Source of the DNA: Daphnia pulex
Lineage: Eukaryota > Arthropoda > Branchiopoda > Diplostraca > Daphniidae
Direction of reading: 5' to 3'
NCBI RefSeq assembly: GCF_021134715.1
Contig: NC_060022.1
Coordinates: 6,577,001 to 6,641,000, forward strand
Length of the DNA stretch: 64,000 nt
Shown here: one piece after another, positions 4,561-56,496 of the stretch
Position numbering within the stretch: the first letter of the stretch is position 1
Layout: each line of letters begins with the position of its first letter
Notes under the pieces: model-generated
Databases searched by the model: none
Told to the model about the DNA's origin: nothing
Seen by the model: only the letters and a program-made list of their open reading frames with translations
Translations under genes and position numbers: made by a program

Positions 4561-5514
4561 TTATGACACAGTCAGAATTCCCATCTTCTCTCCATGGTAA
4601 TACATTTTTACAGGTTGCCACCAACGTATTTCTAAAAGCCACAAAATTCGAAAAATCAGTAAAAAAGTTGCTTTGCGATGGAACAGTAAAAATGATTTAA
4701 CCTGGTTTCGTGTGAAGAAGACTAAAAAGCAAAGTGGAGATTTAAACCCATTTTCGAATTCTATGTCCAGAAAATCAGCTGAATTACAGTCCAGGCATTC
4801 CACTATATCCAAATTGAAAATCTCGTTCTTAATGGTTAATGGATTTTGTTTGTTTCTTCAATGCTTCCAATCGCGGCTCCATCACATTTTCCTTAATACA
4901 AAAAGGTTGATAAAAGAATTTTTACGTGAGGAATAAGGAAACGTAATGATTAATTACTTTGACAAAAGCGATGTGTTGGAAAACGTTCATTTTCGTAATG
5001 TCTTGACCGTTGCATCGGACAGCATCGCAGATGACAAACGTCAGTTTTCCGGCATTATTTTCAGCATCCTTTTCCCTGGTAAAGATGCCGTCGAGGACAG
5101 TGTCGGTAATTGCTCGACCATCAATGGAGATGAATTGAACGGCACGATCAGTGTCCACGCGGAAGAAGTATTGACGAGTCATGTTCTCCAAGGAAGTTTG
5201 GCCGGAAGAGTCGATGTAAAGTAGAAAACGCGATCCGGATGGTTTAGGCATCATAAATGAGGATTCGACTGGACCTGCTGGATATTTTCCATGGATCATG
5301 GAGTGGCCCACAAGGCTGAGAAGAAAGTGTATTCAAAACCACGGGCTCCAGCAAATTTGCCCAGCAGGACCTTCATCTGTCGGACCTGTTGAAAATCTCT
5401 AACGAGACTGACTCCCTCAACAGTTTCATCCTCCATAAAGTGGATGTCAGGTGCCTTGGTTACGATAGCCTGTGATTGATTGATGTGATAACCAGTGAAA
5501 TAATACCCAAACAA
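4561..5514 (-). pseudogene. mRNA capping enzyme (guanylyltransferase domain) fragment, broken
   Basis: The minus strand encodes pieces of the GTP:RNA guanylyltransferase domain of mRNA capping enzyme. A KPSGSR segment sits at the motif I (KxDGxR) position, and TDTVLDGIF resembles motif III. FVICDAVRCNGQDIT matches the segment after motif III, and NSADFLD fits the start of the C-terminal OB-fold region. The motif I aspartate is serine here. The reading frame is broken near 5250-5300, between the upstream part (5514-5296) and the catalytic part (5311-4922). The stretch 4563-5170 is duplicated at 13283-13873. It is an intron-containing remnant, not a retrocopy. Confidence 0.75.
4563..5170. repeat. 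Segmental duplication block B, copy 1
   Basis: Matches 13283-13873 in the same orientation, covering the catalytic and OB-fold exons of the capping enzyme remnant. The two copies part company just after the shared GTGTCCACGCGGA. Confidence 0.85.
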
Positions 5515-5519
5515 AATAA

Positions 5520-6140
5520 AGGCAAATCGGAAGGTTAAGCTTTATCAAAATGTGCTTTAAACATCATACATTTTACCAGTGCTGTTTTGCTTTCTCTATT
5601 GACTATATTGTGCACAATACAAGACTTTTTACTAATGGAAGTTGCCGATGATTTCCTTGTAGTTGTTTACCCTGGTTGTTGCGTTTGTTGAAGGAGAACA
5701 AGCTCCGAAAATTTCTAAATTGGGTAACGACGGTCTAACGGAACTTGTTTTTTTTTCTGGATCCACTACGATTCATTTTAAAATAATTATGAAAATAAAC
5801 AGCGACAAGTATTACAAAATCAGCTTTCAGCATGTGCTTCAGCCACCACGTCTTTCCTTACCGCTATATCACTCAGTAAATCAACAGAGAGCATGCAGAG
5901 ACAGGCAGACAGCACAGCATCTAATTCGGGAGTATCTAATTTGCGCGAAATAACGTCAGCGCCTAACAAACACACTAATTTGCGCAGAATTCAATTGTGC
6001 GAGCGCGCGAAAAAAAAAAGGAAAACGATAAGGCGGAGTCTAAATGGATAACATTTCTTCAACTTGTTGGGACTGACGATTGGAATTTGTACGTCTGGGG
6101 TAAATTATTTTTTGCAGTTGTGATTCTTACACTGGAATTA
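5520..6140. other. No gene seen
   Basis: AT-rich sequence without a convincing reading frame, RNA gene or repeat. A purine-rich stretch with GCGAGCGCGCG lies near 6000. Confidence 0.5.
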
Positions 6141-18985: not shown

Positions 18986-19057
18986 TATAGATACCTGGTC
19001 AGTTCATGGCTGTGTTGGCTTCCCTATCCCGGTTTCAGGGTAAACGTAAGCCGATTT
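18980..19057 (+). repeat. Left arm of a 77-bp inverted repeat
   Basis: Runs from CAGAGCTATAGATACC to GTAAGCCGATTT and is present as the exact reverse complement at 22147-22223. The pair encloses OSCP and URB1 remnants and a THAP ORF. Confidence 0.85.
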
Positions 19058-19364
19058 GGGAAAATGGATGAGCGCCTCTAGTGAGTGTGTGAGCTACTAC
19101 GTGAAGCCAGCCAATCAGGAAGGGTCTATGAAAAACTCATTGGCCAATCACAGCTTACTTTTCTACAAGAAGTGAAAAACAATAATAAAAGGTTTTCCAT
19201 AATAAAAAGGTAGAAATATCCAACTGTCAAACCTCTAAGTTTCAAGCCGAATTTATATTCGATTTTGAATAGCCGGTTGTTTTCGCACAATCCTAAATTA
19301 ATTTGCCGTAATTTATAAAATGTTGTACTATTTTCAATGAATGTTTTTACTTTCCAACTATTAG

Positions 19365-20153
19365 GCTCGTAACTTCAGCACCAGTTCATCATCCCAGCAG
19401 TTGGTGAAGGTAAATCATGTGAGTGTGGTACAGGTACATTTTAACCTAATTGTGTAATTGTTATAGGCTCCAGTCCAAGTTTTTGGGTTGTATGGTCGCT
19501 ATGCCTCAGCACTCTACTCTGCTGCTTCCAAACAGAAATCTTTGGACAAAGTTGAAAGCGAGTTGAAGGACTTTCATGCAACTATCGCCAAAGATTCTCG
19601 TTTGGCAGAATTCATTGCCAACCCCACTTTGAAGAGATCACTTAAGAAAGATGCTCTTATTTCAGTTGCCAAGAAATTGAAAATGAGTGCTGTTACAGGC
19701 AACTTCCTTGGTAAGTTTTTCTTTTCTATTGGTTTTCACTTTATTCTAATTGTTATTCATATGGCTATGATTACAGAACTCCTTGCTGAGAATGGAAGAC
19801 TTAACAAATTGGATGTTGTCACTGGCCATTTCTTTAACATGATGGCTGCATTCAGAGGTTAAGTTGTATGTGAGGTCACCTCAGCCAAGGTAAAATATAA
19901 ATCTAAAAAAAATTAAACAATTACATGTTTAAAAAAATCTATTCTTATATCAAGGCCTTGGATGCTGCTACATTGAAAGAGGTTACTGCCGCTCTTTCTG
20001 GATTCTTGCAGAAAGGACAGTCTCAAGATTTCAACCAAGGTGGATCCCTCCATTGTTGGTGGACTTGTAGTTGTCCTTGGAGATCGCTACATCGACATGA
20101 GTTTGGCATCAAAGATTGAACGTTACACCACTCTCCTTAAACAACCCGTCTAG
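19365..20153 (+). pseudogene. ATPsynO: ATP synthase OSCP (subunit O) pseudogene, introns retained
   Basis: Four exons (19365-19409, 19467-19710, 19777-19889, 19955-20153) with GT-AG introns encode oligomycin sensitivity conferral protein, a peripheral-stalk subunit of mitochondrial ATP synthase. Hallmarks are GRYASALYSAASK near the mature N-terminus and RYIDMSLASKIERYTTLL at the C-terminus. The first exon with the initiator is missing. A TAA at 19860-19862 replaces the Glu codon expected after AFRG. Near 20024 two bases of a Leu codon are lost, shifting the frame of the last exon; all later codons are still recognisable in the alternative frame. A polyadenylation-type AATAAA lies at about 20232. 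It is a recent DNA-level duplicate. Confidence 0.85.
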
Positions 20154-26734: not shown

Positions 26735-26766
26735 AAATAAATCAGTTGCAAAACATTTGATGAAAA

Positions 26767-27792
26767 AGACCAAAGTTAAACCCACGACAGTTTGCTGTTG
26801 TACCAAGCGATTTCATAATCGACTGCCGCCGCCAAATTGCCTGGCACCTGAGTGAAATCGACCACAGTAAACATGTTGCGCTTGGAATCAAAGCGGACCA
26901 TTCCGTAAATCCGTAGTCTTCCAGCGACCGGAGAATTCCGGCCTGCTGGCGATAGACACTTAAAGACTCGTCGTAATCCAGATGGATCTCCACGGCCAAC
27001 TGCCTCACCTTGTCCATCATCCCCGACTCGATGATTTGTGGCAAGACCCGCCACTCTGTGGCTTCAAAGTCCATTTTGAGATAATCAATGATGGAATCAC
27101 CACCAGGGAGGGCCTTCAACATGTTGTAAATGGACGACAAGGTTCGTGACGGCACATTGGCCTCCTCATTCCATCCATCCCTGTCCACGTCTTCTAAGGC
27201 CATTTGATAAAAATGGATGGCCTCTGTCCGGTTGTGATCCGACACGTTCATGGACGGATCGAAGGCGTACACTTGGCATCCGTAGAGTTCTAACTTCTAT
27301 GGCTTGGTCGAAACTCCATTCGTGGCTGATGCCAAACTAGTAGACGAGACAGTTTCCGGAATTGGCGCCACTGCAGAGTCCAGGCAAATGGCCTTCTGCC
27401 CGTCCAGGGCCACCGAGAGTCCGTCGGCCGACGTCACCATCCGCCCAACGAAATACTGGGCCATTTGACACGACGGCTGATTGGTCCACAGCAGGTAATC
27501 GATGATTTGCGAAGGCTCAAGTGTGTCCATGGCCGTTTTTTCGTAATCAATCACTTTGACGATGGAATAAACTGGCCCTGATGTTATTATCTGTGTAAGA
27601 GTATTGTTAATATTATTAGATGGACTGGTGCTGTCGATTAATTCAAGTCTGTTCTGTTGGCCAGCGATCGGCTGGACTCTCCAAGATGAATGCCATTCTC
27701 GTTGTAAATAGGAATGAACATGTTGAGAGTTAAACAAATAATTATTAAACCTACAGTAACAATAAGACCGGTTTTTCTTCTTCGTAGAGTCA
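26767..27792 (-). pseudogene. METTL24-like (FkbM-type) methyltransferase pseudogene, copy 1
   Basis: An ATG near 27792 opens an N-terminal membrane-anchor segment (GLIVTVGLIIICLTL). The body shows DGQKAICLDSAV, the AFDPSM motif typical of this family's SAM-binding fold, DYLKMDFEATEW and a terminal DYEIAWYNS. Disablements are TAG at 27337-27339 within the LVYSFG motif and an 8-bp tandem insertion near 26910 that shifts the frame before the last 40 residues. It is divergently placed relative to copies 2 and 3. Confidence 0.7.
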
Positions 27793-28280: not shown

Positions 28281-29252
28281 ATGTCATTGCCACAATTCTT
28301 CTCTTTCAAACGCACCAATGTTTTAATCAAAACTGTTGTCGGCATTATTGTTATTATATCGGGTCTCATATTAGTGACTGTTATTCGTTCGCCATGGTCG
28401 CCCAGCCTGGAATTAAGCGACGAATTAAGAAGCACAACATGGGAGCAAATGTTTCAATCGGCCACAAATGCAGTCCTATTAGGTAACATTAATTTTAAAT
28501 AGCCGAATTGCCTTATTCCGTCGACTGACTGGGACGCCCTGCTGGACTCTGACACTTTAACCGGCCCTCAACTCGTCGAATATTTTATGTGGACCAATCA
28601 TTCCTCGTGCAAATTGTCCCACGATTTCGGCGGGGTCATGATGGACAATCCGTCGGGATTGGCCGGCCAAAAGGCCGTCTGCATCGACCCCGAAGTGGCT
28701 CCTAAACCCGGCGACTGTCTCGTCTATTCCTTTGGCATCAATGACGACTAGTCGTTTGACGAGAAAATGGCACGTTACGGCTGCCAAGTGTACGCATTTG
28801 ATCCTTCCATGGATATGGACCATCACGACCACAGCCCTGGCAATGTTCACTTTTACAACTGGGGAACTGGGCAGCCGGGATGAATACGACCATCATTTCA
28901 ACTGGACCATTCATTCACTTTCTTCTATTTACAAGAAATTGTCGATCCGTCACGGCCGCAGGATCATCGACTATTTAAAAATCGACGTTGAATATTCCGA
29001 ATGGATTGCACTGCCGGACATTATTGCGTCCGGGATGTTGTCCAACATCCGCCAGCTGAGCATGGAAGTCCATTTGGACAAGCTGCTCTCGTTGGAACAG
29101 CATGTCGCCTGGGCTAAACTGTTGAGGTCCATCGAGATAATGGGGATGATCCGCTTCGATGCCGAGTACAATCCCTGGTACAGGGGCAAATTTCACGCAA
29201 TTTTCATTGTCGGCACCTTTGGGTTACGAGATCGCCTGGTATAATGGCAACC
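28281..29252 (+). pseudogene. METTL24-like methyltransferase pseudogene, copy 2
   Basis: From ATG 28281 there is a short basic N-terminus and a membrane anchor (VVGIIVIISGLILVTV). Then follow GQKAVCIDPEVAPKPGDCLVYSFG, interrupted by TAG at 28749-28751 exactly where Trp of the usual EWSFDE is expected, then QVYAFDPSMD, DYLKIDVEYSEW and a terminal GYEIAWYNG. Further frame changes lie near 28870 and 29190. Family members are predicted type II membrane proteins with an FkbM methyltransferase domain; the substrate is unknown. Confidence 0.7.
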
Positions 29253-41184: not shown

Positions 41185-41326
41185 TCAGATCGTCCCGGGC
41201 CAAAATAATCCACCTGCAGGCTAAAGAAAATGTAATCATCAATTAGCACGTTTAAAATAGAGTCGGAAACAGGCTCGGACGTACTTTCTTGCCGGTTTTC
41301 TTCAGCTCAACCAAGATATCTCGAAT
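41185..41326 (-). pseudogene. 3' part of an unrecognised gene fragment split by copia
   Basis: On the minus strand an exon enters from 47868-47767 (LAKVIELLPLLGAPEAAIEV). It is interrupted by the copia insertion, resumes at 41326 with RDILVELKKTGK, ends at a GTACGT donor at 41285 and continues after a 64-bp intron at 41220-41185 (PAGGLFWPGTI, then TGA). The unsplit paralogue is at 49.85-50.07 kb. The protein is not recognised. Confidence 0.55.
41322..41326. repeat. Target-site duplication of copia, left copy
   Basis: CGAAT, repeated at 47762-47766 directly after the 3' LTR. The unoccupied paralogue reads ATATCTCGAATCAGTCCGAC. Confidence 0.9.
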
Positions 41327-41606
41327 TATTAGAAACGGCTGTCCATTTGGCAAACCCGCTTTACCCCCTTCCCCTCCTTTGAGCAAGTGACGACGCCAGG
41401 CTTTTCTTTAAGTCTGGCAACGTGGGTGGGAGTCATCTTAGAAAAGGGGGGGCTTCCTTTTTCCTTCTTCTTGTCCGTGATCTCGTGGAGTGTGGTAACG
41501 CTGTATGTGCTCTGTGTTTCGTATGTGTGTCTCAAATGTTGCTTTGTGTACCCCTTGTGTCATCGACAATATACACTCAGTGCATTATATCTTATTTATT
41601 TTAATA
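41327..41606 (+). repeat. copia 5' LTR
   Basis: 280 bp, bounded by TATTAG and TTAATA, which form short inverted ends unlike the usual TG..CA. C/T-rich in its middle. No TATA box is certain. Confidence 0.9.
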
Positions 41607-41624
41607 GGTTATGGGCCCAGGACA
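41607..41624 (+). promoter_or_regulatory. copia primer-binding site (initiator tRNA-Met fragment type)
   Basis: GGTTATGGGCCCAG follows the LTR immediately. Drosophila copia has the same kind of site, primed by an internal fragment of initiator tRNA-Met. Confidence 0.75.
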
Positions 41625-41643
41625 CGCCAATTAATTGACAAGA

Positions 41644-44600
41644 ATGAATCACGAAGCCTCGAGAGAAGTCAACAGAATAACGAAGTTAAGCGGTCCGGAA
41701 AAATGGACCTCGTTTAGATATGGGTGTACACTGCTGCTGCAACGAGCACGTGTTCTCAACGTCGTCACGAGACTTGAACCTCGACCCGAACCGGTAATTA
41801 TTGTCTTTCTATGTAGACGTCTTGCGAGACAAAGAACAAAGCTTGAATTTTGAGAATTTCTTCTTTACAAAAGAAAATGAGAGAGACGAAAATTGTAATG
41901 ATGGCAAAAGACTAAGCTATTTCCTGGACATTGAAAAAAAAAAAGATTTGACGAGTAGTTGTAAGTGATGTTTCTATCCAACGGCTGCTCAGAATGAAGT
42001 CAATGACCATTTTTTTTAAATTATGAAACGTTTTACAGTAACTGTGGGGCCAGACTTGCTTCTTTGCAGCCACGTGTTGGTATAGAAACATGACACTACC
42101 TGATGATGGAAAAACATTAAATGCTTGGCTTATTGTTCAAGTTTGCAGTCGTAAATAGTGTTTCTATCAGATAGGCAATTCACATGATACCTGTAAGCTT
42201 GACTTTGTTTTCAGCCGGCTAAAGCAGTCCGAATTAATCCTCTTACTATATAGCCTCTGTCTGAAATAGAAACACTATACTGCCATTATAGCATGAATTG
42301 TGAAGAAATTTTATGTCGTTGTAAGTCGGGTAAACGCATTTTCTTGGGACAAATTATCGTTCACGTCACTCAGGCCTCACACACGCCACACTCGCATCTA
42401 ACGAGTGGTGAAAGTCACGATCGTTTGATAAAAACAAAATATAAATATATATTTATATATAAATATATGTATGTATACATATTTTATGCGCGTACCACGA
42501 CACGACAGAGTACCACCGTTTGTTCTATTGAGAACTCACACATGATTATGCTGTTCATTGAGAGCTCATCTACGCAGACGCGGCATATTACGCACGCCAG
42601 TTAATTAACGTTATGTTCAATTATTGACAGAACCTCAATGAGAACCAGGAGGTCGCGAACCAAAATCTGATAGACGCTTGGGACATGAAGGATGCAGAGG
42701 CGAGAATTATAATATTCTGCAACGTTGAGGGGCCACAGCAAACTCTCATCGAAGGATGCGCGTCCTCCGCGGAAATGTGGGAGCGTCTGATACTGCAATA
42801 CGCCAACGCTGCTCCTATCAACGGCAATCTACTGCTAGAGAAATTTTTCAACTACAAATACAATCCTGGTATACTAACTCTACAGTTCATAAAACTAAAG
42901 AATCTTGTTAACTCACATATGATTACCGTTCACAGAGCACAGAGTGCTGGATCATGTGGCAGTTTACACAAACTTGGCAGAAGAGCTGAGAAACTTGGAA
43001 TCACCTGTCACTGAACAACAACTCGTTGTGAAAATTATCCAAACACTGCCCCCCAGTTTTCGCTCATTCCGTTCGGCTTGGGACAATCTACCAAGGAACG
43101 AGCAAACAATAGAAAACCTAACACCAAGACTGGTAAACGAAGAAGCCATCAGCAGAGCGGCCAACAACGGCGCGATGGATCCGACCGATGCGGCCTTCTT
43201 TGCGTTCCACACGCCTAAGGCAGCCGCTTTCGCCGGGGAGAGTGCTGCAAAGACATCCCCAGGGCAAAGTTTCGACAACGCAGCACACGCGCAAGGGGGA
43301 TTCCGTGGCCGCGGACGAGGCCCCTACTTTACGGGTGAATGGCGAGGACGTGGCAGAGGCAGAGGAGGAAGAGGAGGTAGAGGTGGTGGCAGCTCCAATC
43401 CGCACAACCACTCATACGCACGAAAAGATGGACAACAACAAAACGATCAGCAGCAAAGCAGCCAACATGCCGGCTCAGTCGTCTGCTTCAACTGCAATGG
43501 AAACGGACACAAAGCTTATCAGTGTCCAACAAAAAGAGAAGAAGAACGTGGTCAGGCGAGACAAGAAAATTTCAACAAGAAAAGAGGTTTTGGCTGTATC
43601 TCTTCGTCATTGTGTCTGGTTGCACGGGAACACAAGGTCTGGAACGCTGATTCGGGCGCAACTAATCACATGACTGATCAACGGTCCTTCTTCACCACTT
43701 TCAAAATAATTCCACCCGGAACATGGAAAATCAATGGAATTGGTGGTGTTGAACTACAAGCCCTTGGTATAGGAAACATCGACGTCATTACAGAAGTAGA
43801 TGGTGCGAAGCTTGAAGGAACATTCCACGACGTGTTATACGTTCCCGGTCTTGGAATTAATCTTTTTTCAATTGGAGCAGCCACCGACTGTAACGTCAAT
43901 GTTGAGTTCACTGATACACAGGTATGATACAACTCGTAAAAATTTGCAGTCATGACTCGAGATTTATGTATATAAATATTTCCTTACCAACAGGTCTTTT
44001 TCGCTAATAAGGAAACTAACGAAAAATTCATGACTGGCTCCCGTGTCGAAAACTCCCTCTACAGGTTATGCGCTACGACCAAAAACCCAACGGAATTGAA
44101 CGAAGAATCTTCAACAGCGCTCTACGGTGTTGGTAATGGAAGTACCAAGGCGTCCCTCGAACTTTGGCATAGAAGATTCGGCCATCTCAACTGTCAAGAC
44201 ATTTTAAAGATCAACAAATCTAAAGCAGTATACGGCCTGCACCTCAACGACGTCAAAAAACCACTCATATGCGAAGGTTGCATCTTTGGAAAACTCCACC
44301 GTAGCAAGTTCCCAACCGGATGCGGCCGCGCGGAAAATATCGGCGACTTGATCCACTCCGATGTCGGGGGTCCATTACACGTGCCAACTCCTGAAGGCCA
44401 TCGATTCTTCGTCATCTTCAAAGACGACAACAGCAGTTATACAGTAGCCAAACTCATGAAGACGAAAAATGAAGCTGGCACGCATTTCATGGAATTCGCA
44501 GAAATGATGAAAACCCAAACCGGAAGGCCAATAAAAATACTCAGGACGGACCAAGGAACCGACATCCTCGGCGGAAACTTTAGCGAATACAAAAAACGTA

Positions 44601-47458
44601 CTGGCATTATTCATCAAACTACTGCTAGGTACACTCCACAACAAAACTCTCGTTCCGAGAGAACGATGCGTACAGTTGTAGAGGCCGTGAGAAGTGGCCT
44701 GTACACTAACGACAACAGCAACCAACTTCCGTGCAACATCAGAAATGAAGTCAGAGAACTCTGGGGCGAATTTCTTCTGGCTATCGTTTACATATTCAAC
44801 CGGACTCTCACCAGCCACACAGAAGTCACTCCGTTCGAGAAATTATTCGGCAAGAAACCATCGGTTGCCCACCTAAGGGTTCTCGGCTGCCGCGCATACG
44901 CGCACGTTCCCGACCAGCTACGCAAGAAACTAGATCCTAAAGGCGAAGCATGTTGGATGGTCGGCTACGGTGAAAATCAAAAGGCCTGGCGACTTTGGAA
45001 CCCTGTTGAGAGGAAAATAATCGTTTCCCGTGATGTCACCTTCGATGAAACAATCCTGATTGGAGATCACCCACTCACAGCTGTAAATGACAATAGCCCA
45101 TTGGAACCAATGCAACTATTAGTAGAAGTACTTAATCAGGTATCTTGCTTATACTAGTAGCCATACATAAACGAACAAAATCTATTTTTTGTGTATATAT
45201 ATTTATATATGTGTATATATGTATATGTGTATATGTGTATGTGTATATATGTTTATATATATTTTATATATATATCCATTTTTTTCCACCAGACTCAACT
45301 AATCGAAGGTGTAGATGAAAGCCAAGACACTCCCGATAATCAAGATGCATCAGTCGAAGAAGCTTCCCAAGTCGAGGCCTTAGAGGAGGAGATTGAACGG
45401 GCTCCTGGCGGCAGAAATGAAGAGGGTATGGAAGTCCTCGACGTTGCGGATGCGGAACCTGTTCACGTTGCGACTCCTGATGACGCCAACAAGAATCTAG
45501 AAGTGGATGAAGTCCCCAACATTGACGCCCCACCGATATCGAGTCACGATTCACACAATTATCGAAGGTAAAAACTAATCGCTGTTTCGAAAAAAATTAC
45601 TGGCGCTCACCACCTTCTATATATATTTCATAGACCCACAAGATCCGGCCGCGTGCCAAGATATACGGATCGATACGTCGAATATATGGAATCATACGGA
45701 AATGCAGCATCCACTGATCCAGCCCCTAAGCGCTCTTCATTTTTCGAACTAGAAGTTGATGAACCACAAACCTACAAACAAGCGGTGGAATCAAGATATG
45801 CGGAACAGTGGTTACCCGCTTTCAAGGCAGAGTATGACTCTCAGATCAAGAACAAATCGTGGGTGCTCATCCCAAAATCCCAAGTACCAACTGAGTGCGC
45901 TATACTGCCTCACAAATGGGTTGGGAAATATAAGCCGGGCTATGGAGACCCACTGCAGCCAGATTTCGTGGCCCCACGCTTTAAAGGAAGATTAACAGTT
46001 GTTGGATGTCACCAGCAGTACGGCGTCGACTACGAAGAAACGTACGCACCTGTGCCACGCCTTGACTCAATTCGATCTGTTCTATCACTCACCGCATCGC
46101 TCGGATACAAATCATTTCAATTCGACGTGGCCACAGCGTTCCTGAACGCGGATGTTGACAAACCAATCTTTATGACCCAACCCGAAGGATTCGTGGTGTC
46201 TGGAAAAGAAGACCACGTGTGTAAGCTTTTGAAAGCAGTCTACGGCATAAAGCAGGCTCCCCGTCTTTGGTGCAAGACCTTCATCGCCGCCCTACTCAGA
46301 TATGGTTTTAAGGCACTGGACGCAGATATGTGCGTGTTCATCCTGGTAAACAACAGCATCGTGTCATATCTCTTCATCTGGGTAGATGACGGATGGTTTT
46401 CTAGCAGTGCTGATGAGGAGTGTCAACGCTTCGCTGCTTGGATCGGTAACTAATAAGTTATAACCCTTTTTTTTCCCATTACTCACAAATCAAATTTCCT
46501 ACCTCTTTTGTCAGGTAACGAATTTGAAGTAAGATGTCTCCCCCCGACCAGATTCGTTGGTATGAACATCGAGTACGACAGGGAAAATAGCCAAGTATTT
46601 CTCTCGCAGCAGCACTCGATACTCAAGGCACTGGAACAGTTCGGCATGACGGATAGCCATCCCAAGCTGACCCCAGCCGAATCCAGCGTTCACCTTTCTA
46701 GTTCGATGGTGCCACGCAACGAGGGGAAAGTGGACATGTCTTTAATCCCCTACCGTGCGGCAGTTGGATTCCTGCTCTATCTCTCATCTACCACTAGACC
46801 GGACATTGCTTACGGCGTTGGACAAGTGTCAAAATTTTGCGAAAACCCACAGCCGGCGCACTGGAACGCAGTCAAACGTATATTCGCTTATCTGAAAGGT
46901 ACGCTCGACTTCGGTATATGGCTGGGTGGACGGAAGGATGAAGGAGCCGTAGTCTATACCGACGCCGACTACGCCAGTGATGTAGACGACCGAAAATCCA
47001 TCTCAGGATGCATCGCTTTCTACAAGGGAGGGCCAGTCGCATGGTCGTGCAGGAGACAAGAATGTGTTTCTATCTCAACTACCGAGTCGGAATATGTGTC
47101 CTTATCTGATGGAGCGAAGACAGCTCTTTGGCTCAACGCGCTGGCTAACGGCCTAAACTCGTCTCCGGTCCCAATGGAAAAGTCTTCAGGCGACGAGGTA
47201 CCACCAAATCCCGTTAAGATGTATTGCGACAATCAAAGTGCTATTTGTCTGGTCAAAAATCCGGTCCATCCGAGGCGATCAAAACACATCGACGTGAGAT
47301 ACCACTTTGTAAGACAGCTGCAAGAAAACAACAAGATCGCCGTCGAATTCGTTAGCTCCAAAGACCAACTGGCCGACATCTTCACGAAGGCTTTGCCAGC
47401 GCCAAGGTTCCAAGAGTTACGTGAACGCATCGGGGTAGGACCATACGAGAAGAATTGA
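41644..47458 (+). CDS. copia Gag-Pol polyprotein, seven exons
   Basis: Exons: 41644-41793, 42631-42868, 42945-43921, 43994-45139, 45293-45567, 45634-46445, 46515-47458; together 4,542 nt, 1,513 codons plus stop. The start ATG follows the primer site by about 20 bp. Domains in order: Gag with KLSGPEKW; a CCHC knuckle CFNCNGNGHKAYQC; protease DSGATNH; the HRRFGH and CEGC zinc-binding part of integrase; its catalytic Asp in HSDVGG and in RTDQGTD and Glu in NSRSER; reverse transcriptase with FDVATAFLN and the WVDD catalytic pair; RNase H with YTDADYA, STTESEY and KHIDVRYH. All key residues are present. Retaining any intron gives a stop or frameshift. Confidence 0.9.
41794..42630 (+). other. copia intron 1 (837 bp, phase 0)
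   Basis: Donor GTAATT, acceptor TTATTGACAG. It separates the first 50 Gag codons from the rest and has an in-frame TGA shortly after the donor. It contains an AT-rich TATAAATATATATTTATATA tract near 42440, and no recognisable gene. Confidence 0.75.
42869..42944 (+). other. copia intron 2 (76 bp, phase 1)
   Basis: Donor GTATAC; acceptor AG at 42943-42944. Its length is not a multiple of three, so retention shifts the Gag frame. Removal restores the usual Gag helix sequence (LDHVAVYTNLAEEL). Confidence 0.75.
43922..43993 (+). other. copia intron 3 (72 bp, phase 0)
   Basis: Donor GTATGA (an in-frame TGA), acceptor TTACCAACAG. Lies between the protease and the integrase. Confidence 0.8.
45140..45292 (+). 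other. copia intron 4 (153 bp, phase 0)
   Basis: Donor GTATCT, acceptor TTTTTTTCCACCAG. The interior has a (TATATG)-type repeat. In-frame TAG 15 nt after the donor. Lies between integrase and reverse transcriptase. Confidence 0.8.
45568..45633 (+). other. copia intron 5 (66 bp, phase 2)
   Basis: Donor GTAAAA, acceptor TATTTCATAG. Retention gives an immediate TAA. Confidence 0.8.
46446..46514 (+). other. copia intron 6 (69 bp, phase 1)
   Basis: Donor GTAACT, acceptor CTCTTTTGTCAG. It lies within the reverse transcriptase, downstream of the WVDD motif. Retention gives a TAA two codons on. Confidence 0.8.
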
Positions 47459-47481
47459 GGAGGTACGGGTTTGAGAGAGGG

Positions 47482-47761
47482 TATTAGAAACGGCTGTCCA
47501 TTTGGCAAACCCGCTTTACCCCCTTCCCCTCCTTTGAGCAAGTGACGACGCCAGGCTTTTCTTTAAGTCTGGCAACGTGGGTGGGAGTCATCTTAGAAAA
47601 GGGGGGGCTTCCTTTTTCCTTCTTCTTGTCCGTGATCTCGTGGAGTGTGGTAACGCTGTATGTGCTCTGTGTTTCGTATGTGTGTCTCAAATGTTGCTTT
47701 GTGTACCCCTTGTGTCATCGACAATATACACTCAGTGCATTATATCTTATTTATTTTAATA
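47482..47761 (+). repeat. copia 3' LTR
   Basis: 280 bp, apparently identical to 41327-41606 on reading base by base. It is followed by the CGAAT duplication at 47762-47766. Confidence 0.9.
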
Positions 47762-47849
47762 CGAATGAGTCCGACTTCTATTGCCGCTTCTGGGGCTCCT
47801 AGCAGGGGCAGTAGCTCGATCACTTTGGCCAGTTTATTTTCAAATGGGT

Positions 47850-48376
47850 CAGTTGGGATTGTTGGGGGAATGGAGTGAAGACATTGACTGTCTTCTAACC
47901 ACCCGTCCCGCCCACGTCATTCCCGTTTTTCATTATTATTTTTATTTTTTATTTAATATTGAACTATTTCTAACTATTTAAATACTTAACTCGAATTAGG
48001 TGCAGCCATTGATTGTCGACGGCCCACTAATTCTCTTTCATTTTGTCTTTTTACTAGATACAACAACGGTGGCCAAAGATCAAATTCCGGCCATGGCGCA
48101 GCCAATCCCGCCAATAAAGGCGACGAGAACAACAACAACAACAGAAAATAGACCATATTAACCGTGGATCGCCTTAAACTCTTTCCGTTAAGCCAGACCC
48201 ACAGTTATTATATGCTTCCAATGCTGACGTGTCTAAGGGGGAGATCCGCCCACCTGAGCGCCATCTCTCACCTATCCCCCGTTTTGTTGTTCTTTTGATT
48301 GCTGAGAAGCAGCTAAAATATAGAGGTCGCACACAGTCAATGTCTTCACTCCATTCCCCCAACAATCCCAATTGTT
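47850..48376. repeat. Short inverted repeat with coding-like arms
   Basis: TTGGGATTGTTGGGGGAATG and the following AGTGAAGACATTGACTG at 47857-47893 recur reverse-complemented at 48334-48370. Each arm, on its own strand, can encode LGLLGEWSEDIDC. The rest of the interval contains the exon at 48059-48149. Confidence 0.65.
48059..48149 (+). other. Orphan Asn/Gly-rich last exon
   Basis: After a TTTTTACTAG acceptor, an open frame of about 29 codons rich in Asn, Gly and Ser ends in a run of five Asn codons, Arg-Lys and TAG. It resembles the tail of a low-complexity RNA-binding protein; upstream exons are not found. Confidence 0.35.
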
Positions 48377-48429
48377 CATCGCGAGCTAAAGCTCGCTCGT
48401 ACAATTTACCAATTATTTAGCTAACCAGC

Positions 48430-52351: not shown

Positions 52352-55050
52352 TTATTGCGTCAACTCGGCTGGTAAGAAGTGACGCCGCGGCTGTTTTGTT
52401 CTTGTTGAACGGCGTAAAACAGGTGGAACAGGATTTTCTTGCACCGGTGGAACAGGATTCTCTTGTACCGGTGGCTCGATGTGTTCTGGTTGAGGCGGGT
52501 GAACGACTTCCGGCTGGATTGGTGTAGTAGCTGGTGTAGTAGCCGGTGTAGTGGTCGGAAATACGGGTACGCGGGGGCGAAGAAAACGCCGGTTGCGCCG
52601 AAAAATCCGTCCGGCAGGAGTCTTGATGAGGTAGTCTCGATGATGGCCGACTTCTACGATTACTCCGGGGGTACACCACAGCTTGCTGGTGGGATGTTGG
52701 ATCAAGACGTGGTTCCCGATGACAAACGGAGCAAGCGGTCGCGTGTGTTTGTTGTAGTGAGCTATTTGTAGCTCCTTGGACCGTCTCGCACGTTTCTCGA
52801 GTACGTCGGCTGCTTTTTGCCATTCTGGCGCGAATGAGCGGCGATGTGCTGGCAGACAGCCACGCATCGGGCGGTTGAAAATCAACTGTGCTGGGCTTGC
52901 ACCACCAGATCGCGGCGCGTTTCGAAAAAGCAGGATACTTTTGGCGAATTTTTCTTCGTTGAATGCGCCAGCTGTCCATGATCCACGGATGAGCGCCTTT
53001 ATCGAGTCGATTTCTGCTTCAGCCCGGCCATTGGACTGAGCGTAATACGGTGAAGACGTGAGAGAAGTAATCCCCCAATCCGTTAAAAAACGCTGGAACT
53101 CCGCTGCACCAAACTGTGGCCCGTTGTCGGACCAGAATGTGACTGGGGCTCCTACGTTAGAGAAAAAACTACGGCAATGGCCGATAACATTGCGTGCCGT
53201 TGTTTTTTTGTCACGAAACGCAACAACATGTGGCCAACCACTGAATTTGTCAACCATCACTAGAAAATGGTGGCCATTTAATTCACAGAGATCCGCATGG
53301 ATCTGTTCAAATGGGCGAGTCGCTGGTGGGCGCACTCGAAATGGCTCTGGTTGTTGTGAAGGTAGATGTTTGGTACACGTTTCACAATGTTTGGTGGCGT
53401 TCACTATATCGTTGTCAATGTTCGGCCAGTATACCGATAAACGGGCTCGTTGGCATGTTTTTGTCGCACCTTGGTGCATCTGCACTAAATCACGCAGAAT
53501 GTCAGCACGAATGGAATGCGGAATAACGATGCGAGGTCCCATTACGATCATGTCATCAGAGTCATCTATTGCTAACCGCTCTTTTACACTCCAAAAGGGA
53601 CGCAAATCACTATCTAAGTTACACTTGTCGTTAGGAAAACCCGAGATGATTTGATTTCTCAGTTTAACCATAACCGGATCGTTGGCTGCAGCACACTTGA
53701 TTTTTTCTAACACTGGGTCAAGGTTCGGATCAGCTTGTGAAAGCTGATTTCCGGAGAGGCTCATCAGAGCGATTTTTCCCTGATATGATGGTAGTCCTTC
53801 ACCCAGTTCGTCACTAGTGGTTGCTTTGTTGACCGGGGCTCGAGAGAGGGCGTCCGCGTCGGAATTTTGTTTTCCTGGGACCCAACGAGCAACAAATGCA
53901 TAGCGCTGCATCTTTAGGCGTAAGCGAAGCAAGCGGGGGTTGTCTAATTTGTCTAGAGAGTAACTGTTCAGTATGGGCACTAATGGTTTGTGGTCCGTCA
54001 CTAATTCGAACGAAGGAAGACCTTCAAGAAACTGACGACACTTATTCATGGCCCAAGCGGCACTTAAACACTCGAGTTCGATCATGGCATAACGTGTCTC
54101 GGCACTGGAGAGAAAACGAGATCCTGCTTGCACCACACGCCACACTTTTGAATCGTCGAGCTGTTTTAAGAGAAAACCGAGTCCGTTAAGCCGCGATGCA
54201 TCAACGTGAAGGCTTGTTTGGCGCTTTGGGTCGTAAAACGCTAGATCACGCACGGTAGACAAAAGTGTCCTTGCTGCCGTGAAAGCTTCTTCATGTTGAG
54301 TGGTCCATTCCCACGTGTAGCCAGTCTTGAGCAGTGGGGATAATGGATCTAATACAGCGGCCAGTTGGTTGGAGAAGTTGCCGACTTGCTGACAGAGTCC
54401 AAAGAATGAACGGACGTCTGTAATCGAGCTGGGTGTTGGGAAATCGCGGATTGCTCGGGTGAGCTCTGGGTCCGGTCGAAAACCGTCAGCATCGACGACG
54501 TAACCACCGAAAGTAACGGCGGGCTGAGCGAACACTATTTTGGCGGTGTTGATGGCAACGTTGTGAGCTGCTGCTCGATGGAATAATCTTCGTACCGCTA
54601 CGATGTGCTCATCGTAAGTTGCGGAGAAGACGAGTACATCTTCAACGATGCGTCGGCAATTCGGGAGATCATCAAACACTTCTGATACACGACGGCAGTA
54701 GTCGTCACCTGCATGTGCGACGCCGAAGGGAAGACGAAGGTACTGGTATCGCCCGAAAGGAGTAGAAAAGGTTGTCAGGTCGATCGACTCGTCATCTAGC
54801 GGTACCTGATGATAACCTTTTAGCGCGTCAATGATGGTGAAGAATTTCATTCCGGGCGGAATGGTGCGCACTGCTTGAAACGGTGTCGCCGTCTCAAAAT
54901 TTGGCCTGATTATGCACTTGTTCAACTCACGAAAGTCGATCACCAGACGGATGTCGCCATTTTTCTTCAGCGGAACTAAGAAAGGATGCACCCAAGCCGT
55001 CGGCTTTATCACTTTTCGGATAATGTTAGCGGATTCAAGATTGTCCAACT
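52352..55050 (-). pseudogene. gypsy Pol: reverse transcriptase, RNase H, integrase
   Basis: A reading frame of about 900 codons. RT starts with VHPFLVPLKKNGDIR; FFTIIDALKGYHQ has the first catalytic Asp. The usual (Y/V)DD is IVEDVLVF, so one of the paired Asp is Glu. RNase H has LHVDASRLNGLG and VTDHKPL. Integrase has the zinc H-H-C-C (CETCTKH) and DDE residues in HADLCE, WSDNGPQF and GRAEAE. The chromatin-facing C-terminus is Pro/Thr-rich. It is offset by one frame from gag-protease: a missing base near 55051 breaks the original single frame. Confidence 0.85.
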
Positions 55051-56343
55051 CTGTTTCACTTTTGGTAACAAAGGGACGGACACTGGGCGTGAGCCTCGCA
55101 TTGCCACTGGCCGCGCGTTCTCCACCAATTCGAAATGACATGGTGGTCCCGACATCTGGTGGCATGTTCCGTCAAAAATCCGCGGGCATTCGTTCATGAG
55201 AGTTTTGAGATCGGCCTGTCGTTGAGAGTCGGTAGGTGGCGTGCTCGCCACCATTCCAACGTACGTATGCGGGTAGGCGGCTGGAAGCATTCCCATCATC
55301 TGCTGGCTCCTTTTGGACAACACTGGCTGCTTTAGTTCACGTAACACGTGAATGGCGGTGTTCACTGATCGGGACACTTTGTCACGTGTCGTCCACACGA
55401 TAACCGCGCTGAAAACACCAATGCTGATGATCGGGCTCCCCACTGCTGTAACTGGTTGTACACCTTTCTGCAGCGCCACCTTGCTGAACTTCCGCTTGTA
55501 GAGTGCTTCTGGGATGGCGTCGAGGTCAGTGCCTGTATCTGGGAGAAAATCGATCACAACAGATGATGTCCATTTTTCCGGATTGACGGCCAGTTCCACT
55601 AAATCACTCGCGTTTAAAGCCCCCACTGTCGGAGGGGAGGGGTCAATGTAAATGCCCTGTTGTTTCTTGGCTGCTGCTTTGTTCCGGCAAACTTTGAAGT
55701 AATGGTTCAGTAGGCCGCGCTTTTTACACTCCTTCCCTTGGGCCGGACAGGCCGTCAAAGGCTTACAGCGTGTCTTCGATCCGCAATTCCAGCAGCCCAT
55801 GAACTTCGCGCCTGCTGAACTGCTGCCACCTGCTGGCGGCTTGCCGGACTTTTCTTTGAAACGCTTGTAAGTAGAGGTTGCGCCTTGAATTGCCGCAGCG
55901 TCACCTGTCTTTAAGTTCTTCGACTGCTTGTTGGATGCCTCTGCAGTTCGAATGATTGTTAGCGCCTGATCCAGCGATAAAGTCGCACCTTGTTCGAGGA
56001 GTTTTACGCGCACTTCATCACTCTCAACGCCAAATATAAGCTGGCCTAAAATGCGAGTTTTTTCACAATTAGCACAACAATCCGTAGCTAATTCACATTT
56101 CCGGGCTAAGTCCCGCAACTCACACAACCAGTCGTCTGCAGATTGTTGCACGCCTTGTGTCTTTGCCGCGAACTGTTGGCGCCACACGTGGCGGTTGCGG
56201 CCGGCATTGCAACGAGTACGGAGGTGGTCGATGATGACCGTGTGGTTGTCAAGCTGCGTGTCGGTTAAGCCCATGGAGAGAACCGCTATAACTGTAGTGG
56301 CGTGCTGGTATCGCACTTGATTGCCACTCAGACGATCCGGGTT
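55009..56343 (-). pseudogene. gypsy Gag-protease, 5'-truncated
   Basis: An open frame from 56343, with no start codon, to the shifted stop at 55009. It carries the Gag helical region, zinc knuckles (CWNCGSKTRC; CPAQGKECKKRG) and the protease with DFLPDTGTDLDAIP. The DTG triad is intact. After KVKQ the true sequence continues in the pol frame. Confidence 0.8.
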
Positions 56344-56496
56344 AAACTCCCGAGAAATGCAAAGATTCTATATATGGTAAATCACTTCAAATGTGAGCAA
56401 TATCGGTTACTACGAAAGAAAAATGAAGTAAAAAAGTAAATCTTGAGTATTAGGAAGGTGTAAGAAGCGGAAATACTTTATTAATTCATTAAATTG

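Follow-up and report, generated by a model that had tools for sequence, protein, structure and literature searches.

Copies of a Daphnia pulex copia retrotransposon retain introns that its predicted gag-pol message would have to lose

Structure of the Element

A stretch of 64,000 nucleotides of the Daphnia pulex genome (the window, G000:C6:6577001-6641000), belonging to a 133.19-Mb assembly of 13 contigs (G000) that was searched as a whole, carries on its forward strand a long terminal repeat (LTR) retrotransposon with a gag-pol gene distributed over seven predicted exons. The 280-bp LTRs (TATTAG...TTAATA) lie at 41327..41606 (5') and 47482..47761 (3'), and are flanked by the target-site duplication (TSD) CGAAT at 41322..41326 and 47762..47766. 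As the initial annotation had stated, the two LTRs are identical (0 mismatches over 280 bp) and the duplication is perfect. A probable primer binding site, GGTTATGGGCCCAG, occupies positions 41607..41620, and a polypurine tract, GAGAGAGGG, positions 47473..47481. The former appears to resemble the anticodon arm of the initiator tRNA-Met, as in Drosophila copia. The stretch just after the 5' LTR is nearly identical across the six copies of the family described below.

Exon 1 (41644..41793, 50 codons), with the start of gag, is similar to the N-terminal part of gag in other copia loci. Exon 2 (42631..42868) covers positions 24-94 of the gag model PF14223, and exon 3 (42936..43921), which includes the rest of gag, a zinc knuckle and the start of pol, matches positions 99-165 of that model as well as zf-CCHC and Pol_BBD. 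The integrase region lies in exon 4 (43994..45139), where gag_pre-integrs and SH3_retrovirus were detected and rve scored 25.0 bits, below the Pfam cut-off of 32.6. Exon 5 (45293..45567), defined by its reading frame, encodes a variable linker between integrase and reverse transcriptase; exon 6 (45634..46445) matches RVT_2, and exon 7 (46515..47458), recognized by homology to other copia loci, contains the end of the reverse transcriptase, the RNase H and the stop codon. No Pfam match was obtained with exons 1, 5, and 7 at an E value of 0.01. The coordinates of the separate exons add up to 4,551 nt, i.e., 1,516 codons and a stop.

The order of the domains, gag - (protease region) - integrase - reverse transcriptase, fits Ty1/copia according to the Pfam models, which are of the copia type, and many related loci exist across the genome. 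An LTR pair with a 5-bp TSD was found in 6/6 copies. The Ogre-type order of Ty3/gypsy elements, with the integrase after the reverse transcriptase, does not apply, since the integrase-region exon 4 precedes exon 6. The element is therefore probably a Ty1/copia LTR retrotransposon with a single gag-pol gene split by six spliceosomal introns, a judgment made jointly with that on the model of transcript use presented below.

The Six Introns

All six predicted introns have GT-AG ends and keep the frame. Intron 1 (41794..42630, 837 bp, phase 0) interrupts the same codon in 15/17 of the other copia loci that could be judged. Intron 2 (42869..42935, phase 1), to which the initial annotation had assigned 76 bp, was reset to 67 bp because exactly 67 bp are missing there in the copy called C5; it also occurs in other families, and the PF14223 match breaks off at this very place. 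Intron 3 (43922..43993, 72 bp, phase 0) is likewise exactly absent from C5. Introns 4 (45140..45292, 153 bp, phase 0) and 5 (45568..45633, 66 bp, phase 2) measure 128-155 and 65-66 bp, respectively, across the six copies, and intron 6 (46446..46514, 69 bp, phase 1) is exactly absent from copy C8. The stretches missing in these sister copies (67, 72, and 69 bp) coincide with the predicted splice sites, and the phases previously proposed (0, 1, 0, 0, 2, and 1) and the in-frame junctions stand. The 3' ends, which had been described as pyrimidine-rich, are enriched, although only moderately (12-16 pyrimidines per 20 nt).

When each of the other five copies was compared with that in the window, shared events being counted once per copy, 38 short indels (31 of them frame-changing) were observed in 1,264 intron nt vs. 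10 in 4,551 exon nt, 3 of these 10 being aligner spill-over from whole-intron gaps. Some copia relatives read uninterrupted through the same places. Taken together, the genomic comparisons confirm that the six predicted introns are real rather than products of decay or artefact; the case for introns 4 and 5 is built on the frame, the indels and the open linkers of relatives.

In the unspliced RNA, the frame beginning in exon 1 stays open only to position 41853. Since read-through from exon 1 ends within intron 1, synthesis of the full Gag-Pol would require splicing, whereas the template would require its absence. The read-through (41794-41853) would add 20 codons with a basic tail to exon 1; this extension is not conserved in the intron 1 of locus L043.

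Six Copies of the Family

Six copies of the family, located on six contigs, were recovered (C3, C5, C6, C7, C8, and C10, C6 being that of the window), and the same six were found with the DNA of intron 1, the DNA of exon 3 and the protein from the end of pol; all copy counts from the genome search are lower bounds. The LTR DNA matches 14 places, 12 in the six elements and 2 elsewhere, apparently solo or partial LTRs. Each copy has a different, perfect 5-bp TSD. The two LTRs of one copy differ by 0 mismatches in C6 and C7, 0 mismatches and 1 gap column in C3, 2 mismatches in C5, 2 mismatches and 4 gap columns in C10, and 12 mismatches and 5 gap columns in C8. The tree of the copies, rooted at its midpoint, is (C8,(C5,(C10,(C3,(C6,C7))))), with three starred inner branches. 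The exons of C6 and C7 contain no indel or premature stop, whereas exon 4 is 1 nt short in C3, C10 carries a 1.57-kb insert in exon 3 and 13 nt in exon 7, C5 has one premature stop in exon 7, and C8 shows several exon breaks.

Introns 1, 4, and 5 are kept in 6/6 copies and introns 2, 3, and 6 in 5/6: C5 lacks exactly introns 2 and 3, and C8 lacks exactly intron 6. No intron-free copy was found by the genome search (0/6). The proposal that this is a young copy of an element copied through RNA is supported, and the template would accordingly have to keep introns that the message would have to lose. Copies uninterrupted at intron positions, the sign by which the initial annotation would have recognized decay or assembly artefacts, do exist in the literal sense, but their cuts fall exactly at the splice sites, a fit that speaks for splicing rather than for either of those causes.

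Among the 231 codons variable at one site, 147 changes are synonymous and 84 nonsynonymous, whereas random change would give 27% synonymous. These figures indicate that the exons, when read as predicted, are under purifying selection, with the exception of exon 5 (7:12). The divergence of intron 1 is similar to that of 4-fold sites (0.073 vs. 0.080 between C6 and C8, 0.031 vs. 0.048 between C6 and C5), as would fit introns that are copied but not translated.

Intron Positions in Other Copia Loci

The presence of intron 1 was judged in 17 of 20 loci (L043-L062), exons 1 and 2 not being both placeable in L046, L050, and L062. A GT-AG gap at the same codon, in phase 0, was identified in 15 of them (L043, L049, L044, L045, L047, L048, L051, L052, L053, L055, L056, L057, L059, L060, and L061, where L043/L049 and L044/L045 are pairs from one family each). 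Intron 2 was surveyed in 102 of 148 exon-2 matches, by pairing them with exon-3 matches; the others were 19 rows of one near-identical family, 2 further rows of which were kept, and 27 rows with no exon-3 match seen nearby. The survey gave 39 gaps of 50-80 nt (5 in the family of the window and 34 outside it), 60 matches with no intron (53 with exactly zero extra bases; C5 is among the 60), 1 odd case and 2 unpaired ones, and no gap size between 17 and 50 was found. An intron-2-like gap is thus present in 34 of the 96 gag matches outside the family, the splice sites having been read in a subset of the loci. Approximately 20 near-identical matches belong to another, recently spread copia family (29% to exon 2; e.g., C1:4384169 and C8:1297660), in which intron 2 was absent in the two rows measured. 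The loci L063 and L064, considered as one family with and without intron 2, proved to be unrelated in DNA, and this candidate was rejected.

On an RNase-H tree of 30 rows, rooted at its midpoint and with C5 coded with its family's state, intron 1 changes once (its state being known in 16 rows) and intron 2 four times. The positions of introns 1 and 2 being common to many other copia loci, these two introns are old, and the idea that all six are peculiar to a single element does not hold for them. Since intron 2 is found in other families, C5 must have lost it; likewise, intron 3 is present in C8, the outgroup, and in four other copies of the family, so that C5 lost this intron too.

Introns 3 and 6 look like later gains. 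No intron-sized gap corresponding to intron 3 was found, by arithmetic, in any of the eight relatives in which exons 3 and 4 were measurable, L043 having 25 extra nt. Intron 6 is absent from 23/23 other copia loci, several of which are copies of one family (24 were submitted, and L019 was not measurable): 20 have exactly no extra bases and 3 differ by -14, -1, and +1. A single gain of intron 6 after C8 branched off is simpler than an earlier gain followed by a loss in C8, which takes two events. The age of introns 4 and 5 is less certain, and the comparison is weaker here because the linker does not align between families: one frame runs open through the linker in L043, L049, L048, and L051, that of L047 contains one stop, and those of L052, L045, and L046 are interrupted. 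The last two, of a sister family, show a change of frame and an interruption at about 4830-5500 (L045) and 4980-5670 (L046) on the element's strand, possibly introns of their own or homologs of intron 4 or 5.

The size of introns 3 and 6 (72 and 69 bp) is near that published for D. pulex introns, and their AT contents (69.4 and 69.6%) are closer to those of established introns (80.0 bp, 70.7% AT) than to those of neointrons (77.7 bp, 78.0% AT), as given in PMC4202315. A 6-bp word occurs at both ends of each (ACAGGT in intron 3, GGTAAC in intron 6), which models based on staggered breaks would allow, while the direct repeats described for Daphnia neointrons in the same source are internal ones (PMC4202315). 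Searched as a possible trace of their source elsewhere in the genome, each of the two introns matched only five copies of the family.

Folding of Intron 1 and Splice Donors

Intron 1 of the family folds more stably than its shuffled versions (z = -5.57 with 20 shuffles and -4.73 with 30), five exon controls giving values of 0.16 to 0.93; its antisense strand also folds (z = -3.78). It contains two hairpins: hairpin A (41957..42100, arms 41957-41978 and 42082-42100) and hairpin B (42147..42284, arms 42147-42168 and 42266-42284), the latter being a diverged duplicate of the former. The two agree at 14 of 18 pairs; the other 4 differ on both sides, and 3 of these stay paired in both hairpins. Such two-sided changes would suit an RNA element, but quasi-palindrome correction could yield the same pattern, and some stem pairs are broken by changes present in C5 and C8. 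The covariation term from RNAalifold was positive (+2.45), 3/249 pairs being changed on both sides. Among ten introns 1 from other loci, only those of L053 (-2.93) and L051 (-2.41) fell below -2, and the search for a conserved block was unconvincing after three tries (P = 0.0165 at 150 nt, 0.17 at 60, and 0.54 at 100). The idea that intron 1 holds a conserved structure serving as a signal for packaging or export was rejected, since the introns 1 of most other families fold ordinarily and no convincing conserved block emerged. It is not a dispersed repeat either, as 501 bp of intron 1 match only the six copies. Tandem repeats were detected in the introns 1 of L043/L049 (96 bp x 2.1) and L060 (65 bp x 4.2), and in none of five exon controls.

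A G at position +5 is present in only 1/6 donors of the element and, read by eye, in about 1 of 3-4 donors of the ATP synthase OSCP gene located in the same window. Weak donors were consequently dropped as the cause of intron retention, those of the element being no weaker than those of this gene.

How the Element May Be Copied

Independent insertions have carried introns along, three of the introns are each precisely absent from one copy, and the first two are old. The most probable explanation is that one transcript has two fates. The fully spliced RNA would be the sole message able to make the full Gag-Pol, and RNA left unspliced or only partly spliced would be packaged by the Gag-Pol proteins and then reverse-transcribed. 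The introns would persist because the template usually retains them, as the six independent insertions with introns indicate, and the occasional copying of partly spliced RNA would give an insertion short of one or two introns. The absences in C5 and C8 imply that partly spliced RNA can serve as template: the two copies act as a natural cDNA, which suggests reverse transcription of such RNA. Either a single, partly spliced RNA gave rise to C5, or copying switched between spliced and unspliced molecules. Splicing in vivo, the export of unspliced RNA and its preferential packaging are what we infer from these genomic patterns.

Several observations weigh against this explanation. The folding of ten other introns 1 revealed no export or packaging signal common to the clade, and the donors of the element are no weaker than those of the one host gene read by eye. 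In L054 and L058, exon 1 is contiguous with exon 2, intron 1 being absent, from which it seems that copia elements can live without it. The fact that introns 2, 3, and 6 are missing in some copies indicates in addition that spliced RNA is not strictly barred as a template. A broader proposal can only be put forward tentatively, and we consider it rather doubtful: introns might be obligatory to the life cycle of a whole clade of animal copia elements, intron 1 being selected since only RNA retaining it would be exported or packaged, so that no RNA would be both genome and message, while the other introns would come and go.

A less probable but serious competitor of the two-fate model is that the introns have no role and leak passively into new copies owing to incomplete splicing, undiscriminating packaging, frequent gain and slow loss. 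Precise losses do occur, the four changes of intron 2 on the tree speak for it, and host genes of D. pulex are described as gaining introns far more often than losing them (PMC4202315). With free loss, however, an old intron should be patchier than intron 1, which changes only once on the same tree and is present in all the copies of the family, although the numbers are small.

It is unlikely that the split gene of the family is dead and that its copies depend for their movement, as passengers, on proteins supplied by an intronless copia relative. Intronless copia open frames of 1,371-1,442 amino acids are present in the genome, and C3, C10, C5, and C8 have broken exons, but the synonymous excess in the exons (exon 5 excepted) and the two copies free of exon indels and premature stops argue against a dead gene. 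Copying via antisense RNA or a DNA route is very improbable: an antisense template has been proposed to account for intron retention in Penelope elements (PMC3846280), but the LTRs, the sites resembling a primer binding site and a polypurine tract, and the 5-bp TSDs fit ordinary LTR copying, and absences whose edges coincide with GT-AG sites require a spliced template of sense polarity, so that this route is largely refuted. That the gaps reflect decay, programmed frameshifts or assembly artefacts can practically be dismissed, given that the gaps recur at six loci, each on a different contig, and given the exact absences and the intron positions common to other families; for introns 1, 2, 3, and 6 the DNA refutes it as firmly as DNA evidence allows.

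Neighboring Features of the Window

A second retroelement lies at 52355-56367 (-), where the open reading frame (ORF) 52355-55171 matches RVT_1, reverse transcriptase RNase H and integrase in an order of the Ty3/gypsy type and is adjoined by the ORF 55012-56367. The ATP synthase OSCP gene, interrupted by several short introns, is located at about 19000-20150 (+), and two Methyltransf_22-like ORFs lie close to each other on opposite strands, at 26745-27296 (-) and 28642-29241 (+). Just past the 3' LTR, at 47769-48416, the two strands give nearly identical readings of the peptide QLGLLGEWSEDIDC, one on each side, which points to an inverted repeat, perhaps another mobile element.

Relation to Known Elements and Significance

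Copia elements, including the CoDpu clade, are very diverse in Daphnia (Rho et al. 2010, PMC2996953; PMC3587641), and neither "intron" nor "splic" occurs in the main texts of these two papers; the family of the window was not matched to a named Daphnia copia family. Intron-bearing LTR elements are already known from the accounts of Ogre and Cer1. Ogre of legumes likewise contains an intron spliced in its transcripts (PMC3735527, PMC12786077), but it is a Ty3/gypsy element spliced between ORFs, whereas the present one is a Ty1/copia element with six introns, of which introns 1 and 2 interrupt gag. BARE1, EVADE, and Drosophila copia are Ty1/copia elements that combine splicing with separate RNA roles, as summarized in those sources (PMC3735527, PMC12786077); there, unspliced RNA gives Gag-Pol and spliced RNA only Gag, while here the full Gag-Pol would come from spliced RNA only. 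In Cer1 of Caenorhabditis elegans, spliced RNA makes a protein needed for the export of unspliced RNA (PMC12786077); no such additional protein turned up in the element of the window, no search having been aimed at one.

Penelope-like elements also keep introns, and PMC3846280 sets them apart from every other type of retrotransposon for dispersing genes that contain introns; the present element is of the LTR type. The human L1 SpIREs resemble C5 and C8 in being insertions from spliced retrotransposon RNA, but L1 is a non-LTR element in which splicing is accidental, as portrayed in PMC5860796, and not needed for coding as it would be here. A literature search that left subscription papers and repeat databases mostly outside yielded neither a multi-intron copia nor copia families with common gag introns, which is weak evidence of novelty.

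According to PMC12786077, an intron placed in Ty was lost on copying, and such loss is the classic evidence for the movement of LTR elements through RNA. In the natural copies studied here, most introns are kept on copying, which is the reverse of that result, and the single copies with exact losses record in their own sequence which RNA served as template. The division of an LTR-element transcript between translation and replication thereby becomes testable from genomes and ordinary RNA-seq, and in this family the gain and loss of introns in a retroelement can be followed copy by copy.

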